Shown here: positions 6,939 to 58,091 of the stretch, in pieces
How positions within the stretch are numbered: position 1 is the first letter of the stretch
Layout: each line of letters opens with the position of its first letter
Source: a virus
Reading direction: 5' to 3' (one strand)
IMG/VR virus record: IMGVR_UViG_3300045902_000666
Location: 1-64,000 of that record
DNA length: 64,000 nt
Translations under genes and position numbers: made by a program
Notes under the pieces: model-generated
Told to the model about the DNA's origin: nothing
The model's database searches: none
What the model saw: the letters and a program-made list of their open reading frames with translations, nothing else

Positions 6939-7220
6939 TTAATTTTTATCAAAGAACTCTTTTATTAGCTCATCCAAATCTCTCTTAAGGTTTTGTCTCA
7001 TTCCTTTTTTTAGAGAACGATTTGCATTTCTCACTTCTTCTTTTTTACTTCTTTTTTTTACGGAGTGTTGAATTTCTGTTGAGTCATTCAGCATCCATTT
7101 CGCTTCTCCGTTTCTTGAATAAGGAGTCATTTTTTTATACTTCTTATCCTTTTTGATGATAGCCCCTTTTTCATTTTTTAAAGGCTTTTCATCTTTTTTC
7201 TTTTTATAACTTTTACTCAT
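6939..7220 (-). CDS. Small basic hypothetical protein
   Basis: Starting at MSKSYKKKKDEKPL gives 93 residues, extremely rich in Lys and Arg, with a C-terminal helix LKRDLDELIKEFFDKN. The ATG at 7253 is an alternative start. No family recognised. A terminator hairpin lies upstream, so it has its own transcription unit or is read from tRNA-region promoters. Confidence 0.55.
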   Translation of the reverse strand: MSKSYKKKKDEKPLKNEKGAIIKKDKKYKKMTPYSRNGEAKWMLNDSTEIQHSVKKRSKKEEVRNANRSLKKGMRQNLKRDLDELIKEFFDKN

Positions 7221-7255
7221 AAATTTTAAACTAACAGGACCAATAGAAAACAAGA

Positions 7256-7283
7256 AGGCCCGACTATTTCTAATCGGGCCTTG
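7256..7283. terminator. Rho-independent terminator-like hairpin
   Basis: AAGGCCCGA and TCGGGCCTT form a 9-bp stem around a 10-nt loop, between the small ORF at 7322-7426 and the gene ending at 6939. Confidence 0.65.
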
Positions 7284-7321
7284 GTATATCTTATTGGCTT
7301 ATTTAGTCTATTCTATGAGCC

Positions 7322-7426
7322 TCATGATTTGTTACCTACATACCCGAATTCCACAACGTGTTTATTAATATTCGTATTGAATATCGTTGTGTTTTTATTA
7401 ATGGTATGTTTTTTAGTTACAAACAT
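7322..7426 (-). CDS. Small ORF with strong host-type promoter (34 aa)
   Basis: ATG at 7426 opens MFVTKKHTINKNTTIF and ends at TGA. It sits between a host-type promoter (7491-7522) and a terminator (7256-7283). Its 5' leader (TTCACGAAAAAGAAAATTT) is almost identical to that of the small ORF at 30805-30933, which supports a real short gene. Function unknown. Confidence 0.5.
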   Translation of the reverse strand: MFVTKKHTINKNTTIFNTNINKHVVEFGYVGNKS

Positions 7427-7490
7427 GATTTCTCTTTTTTTCTTTTATTCTAAATAGTTAAAAATTTTCTTTTTCGTGAACAATTGTACG

Positions 7491-7522
7491 CAAAGATATG
7501 AAAAAGGTTCTGTTAAATGCAA
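7491..7522 (-). promoter_or_regulatory. Host-type promoter
   Basis: Minus strand: TTGC, 19 nt containing CAGAACCTTTTTCA, then TATCTTTGCGTACAATTG. Drives the small ORF at 7322-7426. Confidence 0.6.
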
Positions 7523-7580
7523 GAAAAAAGTGAATTTTTTTTTATTTTCTTTATAAATCGCTGAAAATTAGAGTTTTATT

Positions 7581-8219
7581 TTACCAATTCATCCAATAAA
7601 AATCTTCAGCCTCATCATCATCTAATATAAATCCGAAGTACTTTTCTCTTTTTACAGTAGTTTCAATTACTTTGTTTTTTCCCGGAAGATATACCCAAGT
7701 ATGTTGTCTCCAAGTTTTGTCATCTGGTGATAATGCCCATCCAGTAACAATTTTCACCTCATCCGTTCCATGTTCATCAGAGTAGTTCTTCCAAAAACAA
7801 GAAGAGTTGGTATGACACTTACTATCTCTCATTTTTACAACTTGAGATTTTTTCCCATCAAACACTTGGCCTCTCGTTAATATTTTCTCTATGTCTTCTT
7901 CAAATGTTTCTGCTACTTTTTCACCACCCAAAGATAATAATTTTTCTTTTAACTTATCAAAACCTTTTTGAGATTCTTCGTTTATTTCCGCTTTTTTAAC
8001 ATACCAGCCAGATTCTTTTCTCAATAAAACCATAGAGCCAGAGCGTGGCTTTTCTATATATATTTTCCAAATATCTTCTTGATTTTTATAATTTTTTATA
8101 AGTTTCTTTACTTCTTCAATATCAGATGTAGAAACTGTTGAAATATATTTAGGTAGATATATACCTATTAATACAAGATAAATCTTTATTGTATTGAAAA
8201 TAAGATATTTATAAGACAT
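7581..8219 (-). CDS. Hypothetical protein with N-terminal hydrophobic segment
   Basis: A 212-residue protein. Residues 5-28 (YLIFNTIKIYLVLIGIYLP) could be a signal anchor. The C-terminal half has CHTNSSCFWKNY, IVTGWALSPDDKTWRQHTW and KVIETTVKREKYFGF, which look like a conserved domain with candidate Cys, His and Trp residues. No family is assigned. It lies next to the plus-strand transposase, back to back. Confidence 0.6.
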   Translation of the reverse strand: MSYKYLIFNTIKIYLVLIGIYLPKYISTVSTSDIEEVKKLIKNYKNQEDIWKIYIEKPRSGSMVLLRKESGWYVKKAEINEESQKGFDKLKEKLLSLGGEKVAETFEEDIEKILTRGQVFDGKKSQVVKMRDSKCHTNSSCFWKNYSDEHGTDEVKIVTGWALSPDDKTWRQHTWVYLPGKNKVIETTVKREKYFGFILDDDEAEDFYWMNW

Positions 8220-8275
8220 TTTAAGATAAAATAATTCATTTCAATTATTCTGTGATATTTATTTAGAAACAGAAT

Positions 8276-9205
8276 ATGATTCAGTTACAAAAGTTCAACA
8301 CATTACTCGAACTACTTACCTACTTCAAAAAAGAAGATACATGCAAAAAGTATCTGGAGAAGATTCGTTGGGAAGGTAAATTCACCTGTCCTTATCTTGA
8401 GTGTCAGCACAACAAGATATATAAATGTAAAGGTCGTTATAAGTGTGCAAACTGTGAACGTATATATAGTGTTCGTGTAGGTACAATTTTCGAGGACTCA
8501 AAGATTTCTTTACAAAAATGGTTTGCTGCAATCTATATTGTCACATCTCATAAGAAAGGAATGTCATCTACGCAATTAAGTAAAGACCTTGGTATAACAC
8601 AAAAGACAGCTTGGTTTATGTTACAACGTATAAGAACAGCATTTGGTTTGAATCAAGGTAAAGATAAGCTATCTGGAACATGTGAGGCAGATGAAACATA
8701 TATTGGTGGTAAAGAAAAGAATAAACATAAAAATAAAAGAATCTTCGGTACACAAGGTAGAAGTGTAAAGACTAAGATTCCAGTTGTGGGTATCTTAGAA
8801 CGTGGTGGTGAATTAAGAGCCAGTGTTGTTAAGAACACCACCAGAAAACACTTACAAGCATTTATCAATGAACATTTAGAAGAAGGAAGTAAGATAAACA
8901 CGGATGAATGGAAAGGATATAGAGGGTTGTCTAAAACCTTTGACCATAAGTTCGTGAAGCATAACACAGGTGAATACGTGCAAGGTGATGTGCATACGAA
9001 TACACTGGAAGGCTTCTGGTCATTACTGAAGAGAGGTTTGTCTGGAATCTATCATACTATTAGTAGAAAACATTTGCAGAAATATGTTGATGAGTTTGTA
9101 TTCAGATATAATACGAGGTTGGAGACAGGAGCGGAGAGGTTTAATAGATTTCTTAGAAATATCTCTACCCAGATAAAATATAGAGATTTGATTATAGATT
9201 TTTAG
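8276..9205 (+). mobile_element. IS1595-family (ISXO2-like) transposase
   Basis: A 309-residue transposase with an N-terminal zinc ribbon (CPYLECQHNKIYKCKGRYKCANC) then a DDE-type core: EADETYIGG, NTDEWKGYRGL and HTNTLEGFWSLLKRG. This order is typical of IS1595 transposases. Clear terminal inverted repeats were not seen; a similar TTTAAGATAAA occurs on both sides near 8219 and 9221 as a direct repeat. It is the first gene of a plus-strand island ending at 13782. Confidence 0.85.
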
Positions 9206-9261
9206 AAAATATAGTTGCAACATTTAAGATAAATGAGTATTTTTGCTTAAAAAGGTCTTAA

Positions 9262-9504
9262 ATGGAAAAACTCATAAATAAATGGAAATTAAACAAAGGT
9301 CTTCTGGCGAAAAAAATGGATATGCCACTGGGAACCTTCTGCAATAAATTATCATCAAAACACACGACCCAGTTCAGTGATGCGGAGTTGGTGAAACTTA
9401 AAATGGTCTTAAAAGAATTACAGGATGATATTTTCAATGAAGTGGAGATTGACTTCAATGATGCTCTGAAGACAGTTGTTGATTCTAAAAATAGAAAAAA
9501 ATAG
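9262..9504 (+). CDS. Small HTH-like regulator
   Basis: An 80-residue protein starting MEKLINKWKLNKGLLAKKMDMPLG; the segment GLLAKKMDMPLGTFCNKLSSK reads like a phage-repressor helix-turn-helix. It lies 12 nt before the large helicase gene and is probably co-transcribed, possibly as its regulator. Ends in TAG. Confidence 0.6.
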   Translation: MEKLINKWKLNKGLLAKKMDMPLGTFCNKLSSKHTTQFSDAELVKLKMVLKELQDDIFNEVEIDFNDALKTVVDSKNRKK

Positions 9505-9516
9505 TTCTAAAATTAT

Positions 9517-12500
9517 ATGCGTGACCAAAGGACACTGGACTTCTTAAAAAAATTAAAAGATAATAATGTTTTAGATAATAATTATGATTATTCTAAAACT
9601 CTATATATTGATGCTACAACTAACATAACCATTTTTGATGAGAATGGTTTTGAGCATTCACAAAATCCAAGGGCACATCTTAAGGGATTTAAACTATCAA
9701 TATTATCTGCTGTTAATAAAACACAATATTTTATTGATAGGTTAAAACGAACAGGTAACTTCAATCCTAAGTACGATTACTCAAAATTAATTTACGTCAA
9801 TAGTGATACAAAGCTAATAATTATTGATGAAAATGGATTTGAACATGCTATGATACCTAATAGTGTAGTAAATGGAAATCAGTTAAACATTAGAAGTGTG
9901 GTTGATAAGGCTAATTTTTTTATTTTTAAATCTAAATTAATACATGGAGATAAGTATGATTATTCTAAGGTAAATTTTGTTGACACAACAACCAAAGTAA
10001 AAATTATATGTCCAGCACATGGTGAATTTGAACAAACACCAAATGGTCATATGTCTGGTCGTAATTGTAATAAGTGTGGCGATTTGATGATTGGTAAAAA
10101 ATTAAATCGAGGAAATGAGAAATTTATTAATGAAGCTAAAAAAATACATGGTGAAAAATATGATTATTCATTAGTCAAATACATTAATAACAATAAAAAA
10201 GTAATAATTATTGATGAAAATGGATTTAAACATAGCCAGCGACCTGCTGCTCACTTAGAAGGTAGAACTCTTTCAATACAATCTGCTATGAATAAAACAG
10301 AATACTTTGCTGCAAAGGCTAAGTTAGTTCATGGAGATAAATATGATTATTCATTGGTAAACTACATAAATAATAGTACGGAAATATCCATATTGTGTTC
10401 AAAACACAATGAATTTAAACAAACTCCAGCTGGTCACTTGACTGGTGCTGGCTGCCCAAAGTGTTCAGGACAAAATAAAAACACTTCCGATTTAATTAGT
10501 GAATTTTTGAAGATACACGGTAAAAAATACGATTATTCCTTAGTAGAATATATTAACAACAAAACAAAGGTCAAGATTATTTGTCCGACTCACGGTGAAT
10601 TTGAACAACTCCCAAGTAATCACAAAAAAGGTGTTAATTGTCCTAAGTGTACTGGCTCTTTTATGGATACCCAATATTTTATCGAGAAAGCTAATTTAGT
10701 TCATGATAATAAGTATAATTACTCACTGGTGGAATATTCTGGCAAAGAAGGTAAAGTAAAAATTATATGTCCAGAACATGGTATTTTTGAGCAAACAAGT
10801 GGTTCACATTTAAATGGTAGTGGTTGTCAAAAATGTGGAAAACAATTCATGGACACAGAATATTTTATTGAGAAAGCTAAATTAGTTCATGGAGATAAAT
10901 ATGATTATTCAGATGTTATATATGTCAGTGCGATTAAACCAGTTAAATTAAAATGTTTAGAAAATAATCATTTTTTTGAACAATCTCCAAACTCACATTT
11001 AAATGGTACTGGTTGTCCAAAATGTGTTGGGAGAAATAAGACTACCGAAGAATTTATTGAAGAGGCTAAACAGATACATGGGAATAAATATAACTATTCT
11101 TTAGTTGATTATTTGAACACTTCAGAAAACATTAGAATAATCTGTAATACACATGGTGAATTTTTACAAAAACCAGTCCATCATCTGAGAGGTCAGGGAT
11201 GTCCAGTTTGTGGAAATGGGTTTATAAAAAGCTTTAAAATTTCATTGATAAATTCACTTTCACAGAGTGATTTATTTTCTATGGACCCATTTGAAATTTA
11301 TACTATTATCGGTCAAGGTAAGCTTCCAATTGATTTTGGAGTACTTGCAAATTCGGATGCTGGTTCGGAAGAAAGATTAACAACACTTCAAGAATTAAAA
11401 GATAAATTTTCTACTGAAGATAATAATGAGAATGAGTGTATTGAGGAAGAAACTATAACATCTGAATGTGAAGAAATAAGTGTGGTAGATGATATTGATA
11501 CAGAGGTCACCAACACAAAAACACAAGAAGAAACAAAACCAGAACTGCCAAATGTGAATATTCTTGGCGACCTTCATTCATTAGATAATAGTATCTATGC
11601 TACAATGGATAAGGAGGCTCTTGAAAGTCTTATCCAGTACAAATTGCGTAAGCTATGGAATAATGTTTTGAATGATGATATTACGGTTGATGAGATTAAA
11701 TCTGACACTGGTGGCGAATACTTCACACAAATCAAGAATTTGTTTTTGGAAGAATATGAAGAAGTAATCGCATATAAACCTAAACCAGGTTACAAGTTTC
11801 AATACCAACCAAACTTAATGCAAAAGTTAACTGTTATCAGACTATTAAAAAACAAGTCATATGGTAACTGGTCTGGAACAGGTGCTGGTAAAACTCTTTC
11901 GTTTATTGTGGCCAGTCGAGAAATAGATTCAAAACTTACAGTTGTTATTGCATTAAATTCTACTATAGAGCAAACATGCAAAGCTATTAAAAGCGTATAT
12001 CCAAACAGCCAAGTTTTTACTGAATATACAAAAGGGTATGTCTTTGATAGAACCAAACATAATTATCTTGTTCTTAATTATGAGAAATTCCAACAAGAAT
12101 ATTCAGAAGAATTGTTCCAAGACTTAACGAATAACAATCAAATTGATTTTGTTGTTATTGATGAAGTACATAATGCAAAGCAAAGACAAGAAGATGATGA
12201 GTCTATCAGACGTGGGGTTTTAAATAGATTACTTGGTAGAATTCGAGCTAACAACAAGGATTTATATAGTCTTGTTATGTCTGCTACGCCTGTCGTTAAT
12301 AATCTATATGAAGCTAAGTCTTTATTGCAATTATTGACTGGCTTGGATTATAACGATATTGATACAAGAAGAACGCTGCCAAATGCATTAAAGGTGTTCC
12401 AACAACTTATTTTGAATGGCTTAAGATTTATTCCGAAGTATGATATAGAAATAAATGAGTTGACAGGCTCAAATATGAGCAATCTTAATATTGATGGCTC

Positions 12501-13782
12501 TCACTTGTTAGATGCGATACTTGATTTACCACAAGGCAACTATATAGCTATAGAAAAACTATTGCTTGAAGATAAGCTAAATGCAGTTAAACCATATCTC
12601 AAAAAGGGTGTCATCATTTACTCTTACTTAACGACAGGGTTCATTAAACCTATTGAGAAATTTGTTAAAAATGCTGGCTTTACTGTTGGAACATATACTG
12701 GTGAAGAAACATCATTTATCAGACAGGAAAATCTAAATAAATTCCTATCAGGTGATATTGATGTTTTAATTGGCTCCAGACCTATAGGAACAGGTGTAGA
12801 TGGATTACAATCAGTATGTGACAGGATGATACCAGTTACGTTGCCTTGGACCGACTCCGAATACACCCAATTAAAAGGTCGTATCTATCGTCAGGGTAGC
12901 TTGTTTGGAGCTGTTGAGATTGTTATCCCCCAGGTTCGTATTAATCTTGAAAATGATGAATTTTGGTCATGGGATATTCAACGTTTAAATGTAATTAAAA
13001 ACAAAAAGACGCTGGCAGATGCTGCTGTTGATGGTATTGTTCCATCAAGAGTATTACCACGTCCAGAAACAATGTTTAAAAAGTCTCAGGAATCACTTCA
13101 AAAGTGGAAGGATAGGGTTAACGCTGGTAATCTTGTAGAAGTAAAGAGAAACCCTCTTAATATTGATTTATATCCATCTATAAGCGATGAACAACAAAGA
13201 CAAGTCAGAATACAATCTGAGCTGTCAGAGTTCAATAGAAGAGGTAAGACGACACGTTCTGAGACCATGCATAAGGAATTCACAAAAAACCCTGAGAGCT
13301 GGTTTAGATACCATGCACTTAGAAAAGAACGCATGAGTGAGTGGGATGAGATACCTTATGAATATATCGCCACAAAAATAAAGAATAAGAACCGTAAGGT
13401 AGCTGATTTTGGATGTGGAGAAAATCTATTTAAAAACTGCATTCCAAATAATGAAGTAATATCCTTTGACCATGTAGCTATTGATAGCTCAGTGATAGCG
13501 TGTGACATGAAAGATGTGTCTAAGTGGTTAACTAATGAGAGTATAGATATAGCAGTTTTCAGTCTGGCTTTATGGGGGGTAAATTATAAGGATTATATTA
13601 AGGAAGCTTATAGAGTATTAAGCTATGATGGTAAAATCTATATAGCAGAACCAATAAAAGATTATCCAGATACTGAATCAGAGAAAGAGTTGATAAATCT
13701 TATAACTGAGGTTGGGTTTAAGATAGTTGGTGAAATCGAAAGAAGAGGTAGATTTATCTATATTACAGGAACAAAAGAATAA
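9517..13782 (+). CDS. Zinc-knuckle repeats + SF2 helicase + Rrp8-like methyltransferase fusion
   Basis: A 1421-residue protein. Residues about 1-560 are eight or nine repeats of a 60-residue unit (F..KA..IHGDKYDYS..YIN..TKV.IICP.HGEF.Q.P..HL.G.GC.KC) with paired Cys ligands. Residues about 770-1130 form a helicase core: GTGAGKT, VVIDEVHNAK, LVMSATP and LKGRIYRQGS. The C-terminus (about 1280-1421) has KVADFGCGENLF, IACDMKDV, VFSLALWG and GKIYIAEP, the Rrp8-type SAM methyltransferase pattern. It may recognise, remodel and methylate nucleic acid; role unknown. It sits in a transposase island, suggesting transfer. Confidence 0.75.
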   Translation: MRDQRTLDFLKKLKDNNVLDNNYDYSKTLYIDATTNITIFDENGFEHSQNPRAHLKGFKLSILSAVNKTQYFIDRLKRTGNFNPKYDYSKLIYVNSDTKLIIIDENGFEHAMIPNSVVNGNQLNIRSVVDKANFFIFKSKLIHGDKYDYSKVNFVDTTTKVKIICPAHGEFEQTPNGHMSGRNCNKCGDLMIGKKLNRGNEKFINEAKKIHGEKYDYSLVKYINNNKKVIIIDENGFKHSQRPAAHLEGRTLSIQSAMNKTEYFAAKAKLVHGDKYDYSLVNYINNSTEISILCSKHNEFKQTPAGHLTGAGCPKCSGQNKNTSDLISEFLKIHGKKYDYSLVEYINNKTKVKIICPTHGEFEQLPSNHKKGVNCPKCTGSFMDTQYFIEKANLVHDNKYNYSLVEYSGKEGKVKIICPEHGIFEQTSGSHLNGSGCQKCGKQFMDTEYFIEKAKLVHGDKYDYSDVIYVSAIKPVKLKCLENNHFFEQSPNSHLNGTGCPKCVGRNKTTEEFIEEAKQIHGNKYNYSLVDYLNTSENIRIICNTHGEFLQKPVHHLRGQGCPVCGNGFIKSFKISLINSLSQSDLFSMDPFEIYTIIGQGKLPIDFGVLANSDAGSEERLTTLQELKDKFSTEDNNENECIEEETITSECEEISVVDDIDTEVTNTKTQEETKPELPNVNILGDLHSLDNSIYATMDKEALESLIQYKLRKLWNNVLNDDITVDEIKSDTGGEYFTQIKNLFLEEYEEVIAYKPKPGYKFQYQPNLMQKLTVIRLLKNKSYGNWSGTGAGKTLSFIVASREIDSKLTVVIALNSTIEQTCKAIKSVYPNSQVFTEYTKGYVFDRTKHNYLVLNYEKFQQEYSEELFQDLTNNNQIDFVVIDEVHNAKQRQEDDESIRRGVLNRLLGRIRANNKDLYSLVMSATPVVNNLYEAKSLLQLLTGLDYNDIDTRRTLPNALKVFQQLILNGLRFIPKYDIEINELTGSNMSNLNIDGSHLLDAILDLPQGNYIAIEKLLLEDKLNAVKPYLKKGVIIYSYLTTGFIKPIEKFVKNAGFTVGTYTGEETSFIRQENLNKFLSGDIDVLIGSRPIGTGVDGLQSVCDRMIPVTLPWTDSEYTQLKGRIYRQGSLFGAVEIVIPQVRINLENDEFWSWDIQRLNVIKNKKTLADAAVDGIVPSRVLPRPETMFKKSQESLQKWKDRVNAGNLVEVKRNPLNIDLYPSISDEQQRQVRIQSELSEFNRRGKTTRSETMHKEFTKNPESWFRYHALRKERMSEWDEIPYEYIATKIKNKNRKVADFGCGENLFKNCIPNNEVISFDHVAIDSSVIACDMKDVSKWLTNESIDIAVFSLALWGVNYKDYIKEAYRVLSYDGKIYIAEPIKDYPDTESEKELINLITEVGFKIVGEIERRGRFIYITGTKE

Positions 13783-13811
13783 AATTTGTATCAATAAGTA
13801 TATAATTACCA

Positions 13812-14174
13812 TTATTTTTTATATTTTTGTTTAATGTTTATCATACTTGTGTTGGCTTCAAAATCATGTCTTTTTTTATAACCAAGAGTTTTATACATTA
13901 AATTTTGTAACCATATTTCCCAAAGATTTAAACTTTTAAATACAATTGGGTTTTTTGGCCTTCCGTTCACTACATAACGAACACTTCCATATTGCTTAGC
14001 AAGTGATTTATTGCTAAGAGGTGCTGTATATAGACCATCTCCAAGCATGGCACCTGCATTATTTTCTTGACCTATTTCCTTCATTCCACGATATGTAACG
14101 TTATTACGTTTCCATTTCTTGAAATCGTCCATAGACTCTTCTAAAACCTGTCTTATATAATGCCTTATTTTCAT
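13812..14174 (-). CDS. ADP-ribosyltransferase-like protein with N-terminal targeting peptide
   Basis: A 120-residue protein. The N-terminus MKIRHYIRQVLEES shares the R..IR..L.E motif found in at least six other proteins here. Then VTYRGMKEIG and GAMLGDGLYTAPLSNKSLAKQYG resemble the NAD-binding core of phage ADP-ribosyltransferases. It is short for the family and may be truncated. Its ATG overlaps the stop of the upstream small gene. Confidence 0.6.
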   Translation of the reverse strand: MKIRHYIRQVLEESMDDFKKWKRNNVTYRGMKEIGQENNAGAMLGDGLYTAPLSNKSLAKQYGSVRYVVNGRPKNPIVFKSLNLWEIWLQNLMYKTLGYKKRHDFEANTSMINIKQKYKK

Positions 14175-14353
14175 TATTCGTCTTTCAATTCTATATTATA
14201 TAAATCCTTAAGATATTTTATTAAATATTTTTTATCCATTGTTAGTTCTGGCAAATGAATTTCTTCACTTTCTTTTACTTTCTTTTTCTTTTTAGATTCA
14301 GAAATTCCAGACAAGTTTTGTAATCTATTTTTATATGATTCACTTAAATTCAT
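14174..14353 (-). CDS. Small charged hypothetical protein (59 aa)
   Basis: Starts MNLSESYKNRLQNLSGISES and ends IELKDE. The ATG overlaps the kinase-like gene's TGA (ATGA) and its TAA overlaps the next ATG (TAATG), so the three genes form a tightly coupled operon. No family recognised. Confidence 0.65.
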   Translation of the reverse strand: MNLSESYKNRLQNLSGISESKKKKKVKESEEIHLPELTMDKKYLIKYLKDLYNIELKDE

Positions 14354-15273
14354 TTTTTAGGTCTATATTTATCTTCCAAAGTGCTAAGTTTATTATAAAG
14401 ATTTACTCTAGATTCTCCTTCCATTGGAGGTTGGCCATTTGCAATTAATTGGTCATCTAGATTTTTCATAAACTCTTCAGTAGAATTACCAGAAACAAAT
14501 ATTTCTTTGTCTGGGTTAAAAACTCCATTTTCTAAACCACCTATTCTAATTTTAAAACCAAACAAAGTTTTTTCATCTTTTTCTTCAGACTCATAAAAAG
14601 CCATTTTTCTAGACTTGTCATAATGAGTAGAAAATACCTCTTGAGTTAAACCATAATCAACCAATACAATTGTATCTTGTCCATTTCTTGTAACAATACC
14701 ATAAGAACTTAATCTCATCAAATCGCCAACAGGTAAATCATAATTACCTATAAAATTAAAAATACCATAAACAAAATCATCTTCCCACATCTTGTCTATG
14801 AGTTCTTTATCAACTTGCATTTTATAGCCACGATTTAATCTATTATTAACTTCTTGACCGTAGTTATTTACAGCTGCAGCATAATCTTCAAAGTTAAATC
14901 CAGTTATTCTTTTAAAATCTCCTTTTGAAACTTTTCTAGCCAGCTCCATTTCTACCCATAAGTTTTTTTCATCATGGTCAAATACTTTAGCCACAACATC
15001 ACTTATATCATAATAACCTGAATATTCTATTTCAATTTCATTTTGAGAAATACCTTTAGCATTTTTTGCCAGTTTAAGAACTTTCTCGTCATCAATTTTA
15101 TAAACAATTCTAGAAGAGCCACTTCCAATTCTTTGCAAGTGCTGTTCAGCATATTTAACTCTTTGATTAAAACTCCTCAATGATTTAAATGTTTCCATAT
15201 TAAAACTTTGGGGATAGTCTTCCTCTAAGGTTTCTTTTAAAATTGTTCTAATATATTTTCTTAAAAATTTCAT
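14350..15273 (-). CDS. Protein-kinase-like protein with N-terminal targeting peptide
   Basis: A 307-residue protein. MKFLRKYIRTILKETLEE carries the shared N-terminal motif. A kinase-like core follows: RIGSGSSRIVYKID (glycine loop), EKVLKLAK (Lys), NLWVEMELA (hinge) and IVLVDYGLT (DFG-like DYG). A canonical HRD loop was not found, so it may be an atypical kinase. With ADP-ribosyltransferase-like genes on both sides it may be an injected host-modifying enzyme; this is inferred. Confidence 0.6.
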   Translation of the reverse strand: MKFLRKYIRTILKETLEEDYPQSFNMETFKSLRSFNQRVKYAEQHLQRIGSGSSRIVYKIDDEKVLKLAKNAKGISQNEIEIEYSGYYDISDVVAKVFDHDEKNLWVEMELARKVSKGDFKRITGFNFEDYAAAVNNYGQEVNNRLNRGYKMQVDKELIDKMWEDDFVYGIFNFIGNYDLPVGDLMRLSSYGIVTRNGQDTIVLVDYGLTQEVFSTHYDKSRKMAFYESEEKDEKTLFGFKIRIGGLENGVFNPDKEIFVSGNSTEEFMKNLDDQLIANGQPPMEGESRVNLYNKLSTLEDKYRPKK

Positions 15274-15276
15274 TTC

Positions 15277-15897
15277 TTAATTAAATTGTTTGGGTAAATC
15301 GAAAACTTCTATTTTATCTTTAGACTTTACTTGTTTAACATCAACTATCTTTTTCATATTATACAACACTAACATCTTTTCTCCAAAACCAAAAGCATTG
15401 TCTACCATTTCATAATCAATTCCATTGTCCACCAAAAAATTTCTTAAATCTTTTGTTTTAGTAGATTGAATAGCTTTATGATTTAAAATAATATTGTTAA
15501 ATATACTGGCTGGGACCTTACCATCCTCTATATATTTACTAAGATATTGTAAAATAACTTTTCTTTTAGCTCCCAACACATATGAATTAATAAAACTTGT
15601 AGCTTTTTCTAAATCAAGAAAAGCATCATCAATATCCAAACCTTTTTCAACTGTAATTAAATATAATTTTCTACTCCCTCTAGCATATCTCTTAACTACC
15701 TCGTAACTTGTAGTTAGATACAATCCAGCTCCAAATTCATAACGCCCATTTTTTTGAGCTATAGCATCAGTATATTCATCCAAATTACCACCATGCCAAA
15801 AACTCATAGTTTTGGGAATAGTTGAAGGTTGGATAACATCTTCTAAATGAAGCATCTCACTCAAAATATTTCTAACATATTTTCTAGTAGATTTCAT
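15277..15897 (-). CDS. ADP-ribosyltransferase-like protein with N-terminal targeting peptide
   Basis: A 206-residue protein beginning MKSTRKYVRNILSEMLHLED. The core MSFWHGGNLDEY, EFGAGLYLTTSYEVVKRYARG and KLYLITVEKG matches the H-G ... G.GLY.T pattern of the ADP-ribosyltransferase fold. It starts the coupled cluster 15897-13812. Confidence 0.65.
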   Translation of the reverse strand: MKSTRKYVRNILSEMLHLEDVIQPSTIPKTMSFWHGGNLDEYTDAIAQKNGRYEFGAGLYLTTSYEVVKRYARGSRKLYLITVEKGLDIDDAFLDLEKATSFINSYVLGAKRKVILQYLSKYIEDGKVPASIFNNIILNHKAIQSTKTKDLRNFLVDNGIDYEMVDNAFGFGEKMLVLYNMKKIVDVKQVKSKDKIEVFDLPKQFN

Positions 15898-18657: not shown

Positions 18658-18694
18658 GTTTTTTTTAAAAAAAATTGAAAAAAAATTTTTTGCC

Positions 18695-18767
18695 CGCCCC
18701 AGTAGGCCTCGAACCCACGACCCTCGGACCTAGGAGACCGATGCTCTACCAACTGAGCTATGGGGGG
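18695..18767 (-). tRNA. tRNA-Arg (CCT)
   Basis: Acceptor CCCCCCA/TGGGGCG with one mismatch, D arm GCTCAGTTGGTAGAGC, T loop TTCGAGG, anticodon loop CTCCTAG. Confidence 0.8.
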
Positions 18768-18775
18768 AATTGTCC

Positions 18776-31316: not shown

Positions 31317-32585
31317 CTATGCAACAAGTTTATAAGCGTTTTGACTTTTGACTTCTGGTTTCCCTGAAATCGGAATCGTAAATCTTACTGGGCGAACTAC
31401 AACGCCCTCTATTCCATCGGCAAAAGCGTTTGGAATTACTTTTCTGATAATGTTGCCACTACCATTGCAGTCAGCATTGATTAGAATTTTTTTATTGCTT
31501 CGGAATAAACCTCTTTTTATTCTTCTGCCAGCATATTTTTCCTTATGCCTTATTTCTTCATTATCAAGGAAACTGCATTTGCTGGTATGGTTTTCTTCCT
31601 TTGCAATAACTTTCATTCCAATCAAATCACCTTTGTATTGCAGCATTTCAATAAATCTGGCAAATGGAATAGAAACAAAATTCTGATTGCTCTGCGCTCC
31701 CATATTTACCTCTTGCTTCCAATTTTTGTTCTTTCCAATGATAAGAGTTCCTATTCCATAATCTGAAAGACGATTGATAATGAACCTGCTTGCCTTGTGC
31801 AAATAGTCATCTATCTTCATATTGCGCTTAAAAGTCAGTCGTTCAATCTGATTGCTTGTTCTTCTGTTCTCATCTTCTTTCATCAGTTCACTCATCAGTT
31901 CTGCCTTTCGTTTATTGAAATACTGGTTGATACTCTTTAATGGTCTGCCGTTAATCAAAAGTGGTGTCCACTTATTATGATTTGATGTTACAGCCCCAAG
32001 ATTATCAACTCCTATATCAATTCCTGCCACTAAATTCTTGTTCAACTTTCTGTTTTTCCTTCTTTGTTCATAGACAACTTCTATTTTGTATTTTTTATTT
32101 TTAAGAGGAATAATTCTTGCTTGATTGATTTTATTGTGCAGAATTTTTATTTTAATATCAGTTCCAGAAAGATGTAAAATAAATTCTTCAAGTTCTGGCT
32201 TTGAAATTGCCTGAATAGTATAGATAAGAATGTTTCTCCCTGCTGTTTTGTGTTTGTATCTGGGTAGTTTAGGACGACCTTTGAATTTATCAGGATTTGC
32301 TTTCCATTCTTTTATTGACTTAAAAAATGATTTCCAATTCCTGTCAAGTTGCATCAAAACCTGCTGGCTTACCTTTCTTGGCAATGCTTCATAATCTACA
32401 TCTTTTGAGTTCTGCAGTTGTTTTTGTAAATCATTATAACGAATCCATTTTTTGTTTTTAATAAATTCTTGACGAATAATATAATTGGCTCTGTTGTAGA
32501 GATTCTTTGAAAGAAAACAAATCTTATCAATTTCTTTATAGAAATCAGAGTTATTGCTGATAATATGTTTTTCAACTAATTTCAT
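31317..32585 (-). CDS. tnpB: TnpB-type RNA-guided nuclease (IS200/IS605 family)
   Basis: A 422-residue protein. NLVAGIDIGVDNLGAVTSN holds the first catalytic Asp, GTLIIGKNKNWK the middle region, KVIAKEENHTSKCSFLDNEEI the zinc-finger area, and LINADCNGSGNIIRK the last Asp motif. The zinc finger looks partly degraded (single CSF rather than CxxC). No TnpA is next to it. Ends in TAG. Confidence 0.8.
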   Translation of the reverse strand: MKLVEKHIISNNSDFYKEIDKICFLSKNLYNRANYIIRQEFIKNKKWIRYNDLQKQLQNSKDVDYEALPRKVSQQVLMQLDRNWKSFFKSIKEWKANPDKFKGRPKLPRYKHKTAGRNILIYTIQAISKPELEEFILHLSGTDIKIKILHNKINQARIIPLKNKKYKIEVVYEQRRKNRKLNKNLVAGIDIGVDNLGAVTSNHNKWTPLLINGRPLKSINQYFNKRKAELMSELMKEDENRRTSNQIERLTFKRNMKIDDYLHKASRFIINRLSDYGIGTLIIGKNKNWKQEVNMGAQSNQNFVSIPFARFIEMLQYKGDLIGMKVIAKEENHTSKCSFLDNEEIRHKEKYAGRRIKRGLFRSNKKILINADCNGSGNIIRKVIPNAFADGIEGVVVRPVRFTIPISGKPEVKSQNAYKLVA

Positions 32586-56473: not shown

Positions 56474-57780
56474 GTGAACTACCCACCCACGCCAGAGGCG
56501 ATGGGTTGGGCTTCAAGGGTCAACGCTCCTACCAACGTAGGCAACTTACCTTGATTTTTCCTATCCGTTCCAGATAAGATATTTTTTAATGCAAATGATT
56601 TAATGTTTATGGCAGCATTTACATCTCTTGAAACTAAACCCCCACACTTAGGGCAAGTCCATTCCCTATCGGATAGGGTTAGGTCCTTGTTTATATACCC
56701 GCAATTTGCGTGTAGCTTAGATGATGGTTCAAATCTACCAATTTTCAGAATGTTTTTTCCGTACCATTCTGCCTTGTATTCCAACATTGTTACGAAGGTT
56801 GACCAACTCGCATCACTTATTGATTGCGCAAGTTTGTGGTTCTTTACCATATTGGAAACCGCTAAATCTTCAATCGCTAAACTATCGTGGTTCTTGATTA
56901 GTTCACTTGAAGTTTTATGTAGAAAGTCTTTTCTTTGATTAGCTACTTTTTCGTGGATTACGGCTAATTTTTGCTTTGTTCTTTTACCTTTATGTTTTGA
57001 GTATTTGCGTTGTACATACTTTAATTTAGATTGTGCTTTACAAAGGTGTTTTGGATTTTCAAACTCTTTTCCGTCAGATGCGACAAGATATGTTTTAATT
57101 CCTAAATCAATTCCAATTGTTGTATTTTCTCTAACCCTTGCTTTTGGTTTTGCATCTTCTCCTGTATCACATAGTATTGAAACAAAATATTTTCCTGTCG
57201 GTGTTCTGCTTATTGTCGCTTGCCTAATCGCACCTTTAATTGGTCTGTGTACAACAATATCAATTCCTTTCCTGAACTTTGGGATAACCAACTTGCCGTT
57301 TTTTAATGAAACATTTTGTGGAATATTGAAACTACCACCGCTTGATTTCTTTTTAAATTTTGGAAACTTGTTTTGCCCTTTAAAAAATGCAGTGTATGAT
57401 TTGTCTAAGTTAGTTATTGATTGTTGCAAAGATTGACTGTTAATTTCTTTAAGCCATTCGCATTCTGTTTTAAGGTCTTTTAACTGGCTGTGCAAAGCAA
57501 AACAACTTAAATTAATCTTGTAACCTGCCCAAGCCATTTGCTTAACTTCTAAAGCGAGATTATACACAAAACGACTTGCTCCGATATGCTTATTAAGCAA
57601 GACGGTTTGTTCTTTTGTAGGGGTTAATCTATATTTAAAAGCTTTTAACATCAATTATAAATATGTGCAAATATATAAAAGTTTAAAGAAACCGCAAAAT
57701 TTATTTAAAACGATTATTAACTTTGTATTAGGTCGCTTTCATCCCACCCACAGCAAAGCTGATGAGTGGGCTTTCGCTCC
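56474..57780 (-). mobile_element. IS200/IS605-type element carrying tnpB
   Basis: Bounded on one side by GTGAACTACCCACCCACGCC with a CCCA..TGGG hairpin and on the other by a hairpin-forming CCCACCCACAGCAAAGCTG and GTGGGCTTTCG. It carries only tnpB, no tnpA. Phage coding sequence on both sides appears to be one interrupted gene. Exact ends are approximate. Confidence 0.65.
56479..57654 (-). CDS. tnpB: TnpB RNA-guided nuclease
   Basis: A 391-residue protein. N-terminal MMLKAFKYRLTPTKEQTVLL and ASRFVYNLALEVKQ are typical OrfB. Catalytic motifs are complete: IGIDLGIKTYLVASD, LAIEDLAVSNM, zinc finger CGYINKDLTLSDREWTCPKC, and RDVNAAINI. It appears intact and could be active. It would use the transcript of the element's right end as guide RNA. 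Confidence 0.9.
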   Translation of the reverse strand: MMLKAFKYRLTPTKEQTVLLNKHIGASRFVYNLALEVKQMAWAGYKINLSCFALHSQLKDLKTECEWLKEINSQSLQQSITNLDKSYTAFFKGQNKFPKFKKKSSGGSFNIPQNVSLKNGKLVIPKFRKGIDIVVHRPIKGAIRQATISRTPTGKYFVSILCDTGEDAKPKARVRENTTIGIDLGIKTYLVASDGKEFENPKHLCKAQSKLKYVQRKYSKHKGKRTKQKLAVIHEKVANQRKDFLHKTSSELIKNHDSLAIEDLAVSNMVKNHKLAQSISDASWSTFVTMLEYKAEWYGKNILKIGRFEPSSKLHANCGYINKDLTLSDREWTCPKCGGLVSRDVNAAINIKSFALKNILSGTDRKNQGKLPTLVGALTLEAQPIASGVGG

Positions 57781-57985: not shown

Positions 57986-58021
57986 TTTATCTATTTATTT
58001 TTCATAACATTTATTTTTTGT

Positions 58022-58091
58022 GCGAGTAATGGGATTCGAACCCATGAACAAGCTTTTAGAGAGCTTCACTTTACCACTAAATTATACTCGC
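58022..58091 (-). tRNA. Amber suppressor tRNA (CTA)
   Basis: Perfect acceptor GCGAGTA/TACTCGC, D arm with TTTAGTGGTAAAGT, T arm ATGGG/CCCAT. Anticodon stem AAGCT/AGCTT has loop CTCTAAA, giving CTA, which reads UAG. The charging identity is not clear from the body. A gene nearby (58482-58874) contains an early in-frame TAG. Confidence 0.8.

Follow-up and report, generated by a model that had tools for sequence, protein, structure and literature searches.

A phage-resident IS1595-family transposon with a repeat array–SWI2/SNF2–RRP8 methyltransferase passenger

IS1595-family elements that carry passenger genes ('tIS') are already known, including MTnSag1 and tISCpe8 (PMC5704250), and phages are known to encode dyads of a SWI2/SNF2 motor and a methylase, among which DarB protects DNA in cis (PMC5512222). 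Here, we describe a locus that brings these two known kinds of system together. It lies in the first 64,000 bases (the window, the whole stretch that was analysed) of a 101,743-base virus record in IMG/VR. The element shares with MTnSag1 and tISCpe8 an IS1595 transposase, inverted repeats of about 25 bp, a passenger gene and, in its sister elements, 8-bp target duplications. In contrast to these, it resides in a phage, its passenger is an SNF2-RRP8 fusion and not a lincomycin-resistance gene, and no conjugation function was seen in it.

As in the DarB-type dyads, the passenger joins a SWI2/SNF2 motor and a methyltransferase in a single chain on a mobile genome, but its methyltransferase belongs to the RRP8 family and lacks the DNA amino-methylase motif [DNS]PP[YFW], and tandem repeat arrays are added. 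The passenger is therefore not classed as a DarB protein, although it may work alike; its match to the DarB-like profile phrog_10089 was marginal (16.8 bits). DarB-type proteins are packaged in the virion and injected. Eukaryotic RRP8 (nucleomethylin, 2zfu) shares the methyltransferase domain in both sequence and fold, but has neither the motor nor the array and acts on rRNA. DISARM (DrmD), BREX (BrxHI), PLD-helicase and Zorya (ZorD) systems also use SNF2/SF2 motors, to which the passenger is related by weak matches or a common fold only. Unlike these, it is a single gene with none of their partner genes, and its methyltransferase is in cis and from another family. The literature searched, whose coverage is incomplete, held no description of a phage tIS with an SNF2-RRP8 fusion and swappable arrays, and Rrp8 is mentioned in neither PMC7824862 nor PMC5512222.

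An IS1595-family transposon and its sister elements

The window island is a passenger-carrying IS1595-family transposon resident in phages. It spans 8152-13810 (5,659 bp), where 25-bp terminal inverted repeats, matched at 21/25 positions, enclose the transposase, a small ORF and the fusion gene. The original prediction had recognised this unit and its two large genes, but its limits (8276-13782) were too short, and the 80-aa ORF between the two genes also belongs to it. The backbone features are:

8152..8176, plus strand: left terminal inverted repeat, GGTAGATATATACCTATTAATACAA, which agrees with the inverted right end at 21/25 positions and with the sister-phage consensus at 18/23
8276..9205, plus strand: IS1595-family transposase, 309 aa, frame intact and catalytic residues conserved (PF12762, PF12760, NF033547; alignment with 8 phage relatives)
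9262..9504, plus strand: accessory ORF, 80 aa, HTH-like by eye, located behind the transposase in several of the sister phage elements too
13786..13810, minus strand: right terminal inverted repeat, with GGTAATTATATACTTATTGATACAA as its reverse complement and 20/23 agreement with the consensus of the sister elements

The transposase assignment held up well, with matches to PF12762 (4e-48), PF12760 and NF033547 (225 bits against a cut-off of 75), as expected for an IS1595 DDE transposase with a zinc ribbon. In Pfam, the 80-aa ORF gave a sub-threshold match to CII/CP76 and nothing else, and it was also found in L025/L042, L026-L029, L031 and L032. The ends were located through L027/L028, contigs found among transposase relatives in viral contigs: window positions 13785-13823, at the end of the passenger gene, align with both ends of their IS1595 element. 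The right repeat begins after a gap of 3 bp from the passenger stop codon. The repeat common to the compared element ends is roughly GGTAACTATATACTTATT(G/T)A(T/C)AC, and the 64 kb contain three matches of at least 18/23 to this consensus, against none in 20 shuffles. Besides the two transposon ends, the third match lies at 194-216. This is a right-end repeat (20/23) that stops at position 216 and is directly followed by a tRNA-Met gene, so a second IS1595-type element (1-216) seems to be cut by the start of the contig, as judged from this end sequence.

The window copy is flanked by TATATTTA and ATTATTTT, and because this 8-bp target duplication is not intact, we infer the insertion of the element from its two ends and from its kin. 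Perfect 8-bp target duplications were present around eight sister elements: L029 (TAAAATAT), L030 (CTAATAAT), L031 (ATTTTTTT), L032 (TTACAGAA), L033 (TTGCCGAA), L035 (AAAATTAT), L037 (CTCGGCTG) and L042 (AAAATATA), the last of which carries the same type of cargo as the window. In addition, the 13-mer GGTAACTATATAY occurred as one forward and one reversed copy in each of seven sister contigs and was absent from controls. The proposal that the fusion is part of a transposon-carried system is thus borne out by the inverted repeats, by the target duplications of the sister elements and by like cargo in a second phage. The accompanying claim of recent entry is unsupported, since the target duplication is lost and the dS to the nearest transposase found is about 1.6. 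No empty insertion site was found: relatives of the flanking 307-aa ORF reach 54-55% only, and the flanking 212-aa ORF had no relatives. This 212-aa ORF (7581-8219, minus strand) has its ATG within the transposon; apparently, the insertion removed the original 5' end of the gene and supplied a new start.

The closest sister is L042, a 154 kb phage contig (L025 is part of it) that features a transposase, an 80-aa ORF and a passenger like those of the window. The two transposases are 91% identical and the 80-aa ORFs 93% identical, both under purifying selection (dN/dS about 0.03), and the similarity between window and L042 stops abruptly where the 80-aa ORF ends. The L042 passenger, a 1,443-aa protein whose SNF2 core and RRP8 domain follow about nine INT_rpt repeats, has a core only 41% identical to that of the window, whereas three phage copies without a transposase (L002, L003 and L004) reach 65-70%. 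A core tree placed the window with these three and L042 outside, although the support was moderate and the branch of L042 long. The simplest reading of these sequence comparisons is that one and the same transposon backbone can carry various members of a single passenger family. Alternatively, but less probably, transposase and cargo may have co-diverged in L042 with no exchange of cargo, a reading consistent with synonymous sites near saturation and with the long L042 branch in the tree.

The slot occupied by the passenger holds N6/N4 DNA methyltransferases (PF01555) in L029 and L030 and a PAPS-reductase-like gene in L027. The cargo across L027/L028, L029, L030, L033 and L035 was varied and also included proteins that are P63C-like and Bro-N-like by eye. 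Phages host IS1595 transposons with exchangeable cargo, DNA methyltransferases among it. L002, L003 and L004, which are most of the phage copies of the passenger found, do not lie within this transposon. A lone IS1595-type end repeat (20/23) was observed at L003:8076-8098, with no transposase, approximately 400 bp upstream of the helicase-methyltransferase gene.

The passenger gene and its family

The passenger encodes a long fusion protein, and its parts are:

9517..13782, plus strand: passenger, repeat array–SWI2/SNF2 ATPase–RRP8 methyltransferase, 1421 aa (Pfam, PHROGs; architecture shared with proteins of phages, bacteria, plasmids and an archaeal MAG)
9517..11226, plus strand: nine N-terminal repeats of ~62 aa, DUF723/DUF4379 type (treble-clef), visible as a DNA repeat family with a spacing of 186-189 nt
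11761..13038, plus strand: SWI2/SNF2-type ATPase, with Walker A GTGAGKT, DEVH and motif VI QLKGRIYRQG (ResIII, Helicase_C; folds INO80/ISWI/SsoRad54)
13198..13779, plus strand: RRP8-type methyltransferase, with DFGCGE, FSLALWGxN and PESWFRYH (PF05148, 2zfu, motifs)

The fusion of repeats, helicase and Rrp8-like methyltransferase had been proposed from the sequence and was recovered here within the one ORF (DUF4379/DUF723 repeats, ResIII/Helicase_C and Methyltransf_8). The array comprises residues 1-570, and residues 570-1421 are conserved. Zinc-binding repeats were also predicted, and this applies to six of the nine, which feature the putative ligands C-x2-H...C-x2-C or a near variant (9901-10092 and 10288-11226), but not to the other three, which have no cysteines. 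A single repeat was predicted to fold as a helix, a beta-hairpin and a short helix (pLDDT 89). Sequence and fold searches both returned no solved relative of the repeat, so nucleic-acid binding by the array is an assumption. Nucleases bearing the same repeats are encoded near the passenger homologues of L002 and L004. Restriction-modification pairing with a treble-clef endonuclease was considered for the window phage and rejected, as there is no second DUF723 gene in the window's record. By eye, a deoxyhypusine synthase-like ORF follows the helicase-methyltransferase gene of L002 (L002:6374-7345).

The conserved core consists of a SWI2/SNF2 ATPase and a true RRP8-type methyltransferase, and the window protein retains intact motor motifs and an intact RRP8 SAM motif. 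Fold comparisons were made with an AlphaFold2 model of moderate confidence (pLDDT 68, pTM 0.54), in which the predicted ATPase resembled INO80 (Z 18.8), a Sulfolobus SWI2/SNF2 protein (Z 18.3) and ZorD (Z 16.6), as well as CSB/Rad26. The helicase domain had been called SF2, which is hereby refined to the SWI2/SNF2 fold. SNF2 motors translocate on dsDNA in the members that have been studied. The methyltransferase matched PF05148 (Methyltransf_8) with an E-value of 1.4e-29 and 104 bits (cut-off 27), and its modelled C-terminus superposed on the human RRP8 structure (2zfu) with a Z of 23.7 and 1.8 Å over 188 residues. Human RRP8 was also its best sequence match (phmmer, 1e-22), and the family profile matched it at 1e-45, in agreement with the original prediction. 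The [DNS]PP[YFW] motif was absent from the methyltransferase domains of the other members examined as well.

Members with identical architecture were found in Polaribacter (49% core identity to the window) and in an archaeal MAG, a planctomycete and Phormidium (37-39%), while those of Crinalium and two Rhodococcus are plasmid-borne. Core relatives were present in 8/386 cyanobacteria, two of which lack the methyltransferase, and two further samples of 395 and 294 genomes yielded the previously known member and no other. The SNF2-core relatives in two small cyanobacterial genomes (L023 and L024) stop after the motor, with no RRP8 domain, and the L023 match contains two in-frame TGA codons. PF05148 was searched in 867 genomes (292 cyanobacteria, 296 Bacteroidota and 279 from the phylum of the archaeal MAG). 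Strong matches came from six: five SNF2-RRP8 fusions and one shortened, apparently broken copy (G286). None of these strong matches in the 867 prokaryote genomes was a stand-alone RRP8 enzyme, the only PF05148 matches in 72,556 plasmids were three fusions, and no RRP8 domain was found in 50,697 phage records; all three counts depend on sample and threshold. The passenger belongs to a prokaryotic, previously unnamed family that is rare, sporadic and partly carried on plasmids, and in these samples RRP8, known as a eukaryotic nucleolar enzyme, gains a prokaryotic context of SNF2 motor and swappable arrays.

The N-termini of the family vary. DUF723-type arrays are found in the window, L003, L004 and L007; DUF4379 arrays in L008 and L010; and INT_rpt arrays in L019 and L042 and, by eye, in L018 and in L002, where one DUF723-type repeat comes first. 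L009 combines a sigma-like region with one DUF4379 repeat, and L021 (by eye also L020) an HTH-like region with DUF4379. Judged from these sequences, the N-terminal arrays (DUF723, DUF4379 and INT_rpt) are exchanged while the core is constant. In the planctomycete member (L009:2902-8307), the N-terminus ahead of the single DUF4379 repeat is long and sigma-region-4/MzaA-like. A composite IS982 element around the Polaribacter copy was considered and rejected, as this IS982 copy apparently has its own 7-bp duplication (TATTATT, read off the sequence). A 57-bp palindrome of IS982-like terminal repeats (L007:9155-9211) overlaps the 3' end of a 213-aa ORF downstream of the helicase-methyltransferase gene in Polaribacter.

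Proposed function and alternatives

Our leading interpretation, held tentatively and with somewhat less than even confidence, is that this phage tIS with its array-SNF2-RRP8 passenger provides array-guided, ATP-driven DNA methylation, which most likely marks the carrier's DNA against host nucleases. The array would dock the protein onto particular DNA sequences, the motor would travel along or distort the duplex so that a base is exposed, and the RRP8 domain would then methylate this base, probably an adenine. The RRP8 enzymes characterised to date introduce m1A into large-subunit rRNA, and this modification disrupts Watson-Crick pairing (PMC6085284). As m1A lies on the pairing face, an unpaired or flipped base would be required, which a motor within one polypeptide with the methyltransferase could help to provide. 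The most likely gain would be protection of the carrier's own DNA, by analogy with the DarB type, and the transposon would thereby repay its phage host with a conflict gene. DNA methyltransferases occupy the same slot in sister elements, which makes protective marking the simplest benefit. The exchange of arrays on a conserved core and the sporadic, partly plasmid-borne occurrence of the family also fit the leading interpretation. Counting against DNA marking, the methyltransferase is without [DNS]PP[YFW] and its characterised relatives act on rRNA. The incomplete target duplication of the window copy, the phage copies outside the transposon and the assumed binding by the repeats likewise weigh against the interpretation as a whole.

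The main alternative, which we regard as rather unlikely, is an attack on rivals, in which the array would recognise competing phages or plasmids and the motor and RRP8 domain would add harmful, pairing-blocking m1A to their DNA or nascent RNA, resulting in superinfection exclusion or, in bacteria, defence. The sporadic distribution, plasmids included, the diversification of the arrays, the effect of m1A on base pairing and the presence of SNF2 motors in defence systems such as Zorya (fold match 8qy7) are all in keeping with this, and an anti-phage or anti-mobile system had been raised as a possibility in the original prediction. However, no conserved partner or immunity gene was seen beside the phage or cellular copies examined, the cellular copies examined lie mostly outside obvious defence islands, and the best PADLOC matches (DISARM, BREX, Dpd and Pbe) reached 32-40 bits, covered helicase segments only and included no strong component. 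Methylation of ribosomal RNA by phage or host, as in eukaryotic RRP8, for translation takeover or ribosome protection, had been suggested in the original prediction. It draws on the strong RRP8 homology and the known rRNA substrate, but is less supported now and we consider it improbable, given that dsDNA is the characteristic substrate of SNF2 motors, that the gene is rare and accessory, and that close relatives differ in the type and number of their arrays, a variation that would not be expected with an invariant target such as rRNA and that fits a changing one better.

A role in phage DNA metabolism appears less probable again. SNF2 helicases encoded by jumbo phages are believed to act in recombination or in the recycling of RNA polymerase (PMC7824862) and CSB/Rad26 is among the fold matches, so the methyltransferase could be secondary to such a motor; against this, the window gene is carried as cargo by a transposon, and its family is rare and not a core phage gene, as the phage-record count indicates. 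Least probable of all is that the passenger helps transposition, by guiding the transposon to target sites or aiding its replication. The same element with the same transposase is present in two phages, but most sister elements move without this passenger, as their perfect target duplications and other or no large cargo indicate, and most family members have no transposase.

Returning to array-guided methylation, a broader and doubtful proposal is that the family represents a new class of target-guided nucleic-acid methylation, in which the arrays would be address labels and the SNF2 motor would present bases to the RRP8 methyltransferase, with phage transposons and plasmids spreading the family. 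Since the strong prokaryotic matches in our samples are confined to the fusion, nucleolar RRP8 might itself have its origin in a mobile conflict gene of this kind. The passenger would be a single-chain, re-addressable methylation tool, provided that its arrays act as readers.

The host phage

The phage of the window is large and tRNA-rich, with 38 predicted tRNA genes and genes mainly on the minus strand. A 20-kb probe of the window found nothing similar at the DNA level among isolate phages, and no Rfam structures were detected in window 7000-15000. ARAGORN predicted a tRNA with a CTA anticodon (58020-58091) and another with an odd four-base anticodon (18692-18768, minus strand). The former raised the idea of TAG recoding, which is unsupported: TAG is the stop in 14/79 window ORFs, so recoding is not evident. 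Near the insertion site, an ORF at 15277-15897 (minus strand) has weak DUF3990 and ART-PolyVal matches, a hint that it is a candidate ADP-ribosyltransferase. Two more transposase-like ORFs, at 31317-32585 and 56479-57654 (minus strand), match phrog_506 and suggest that the window phage hosts several kinds of mobile element.
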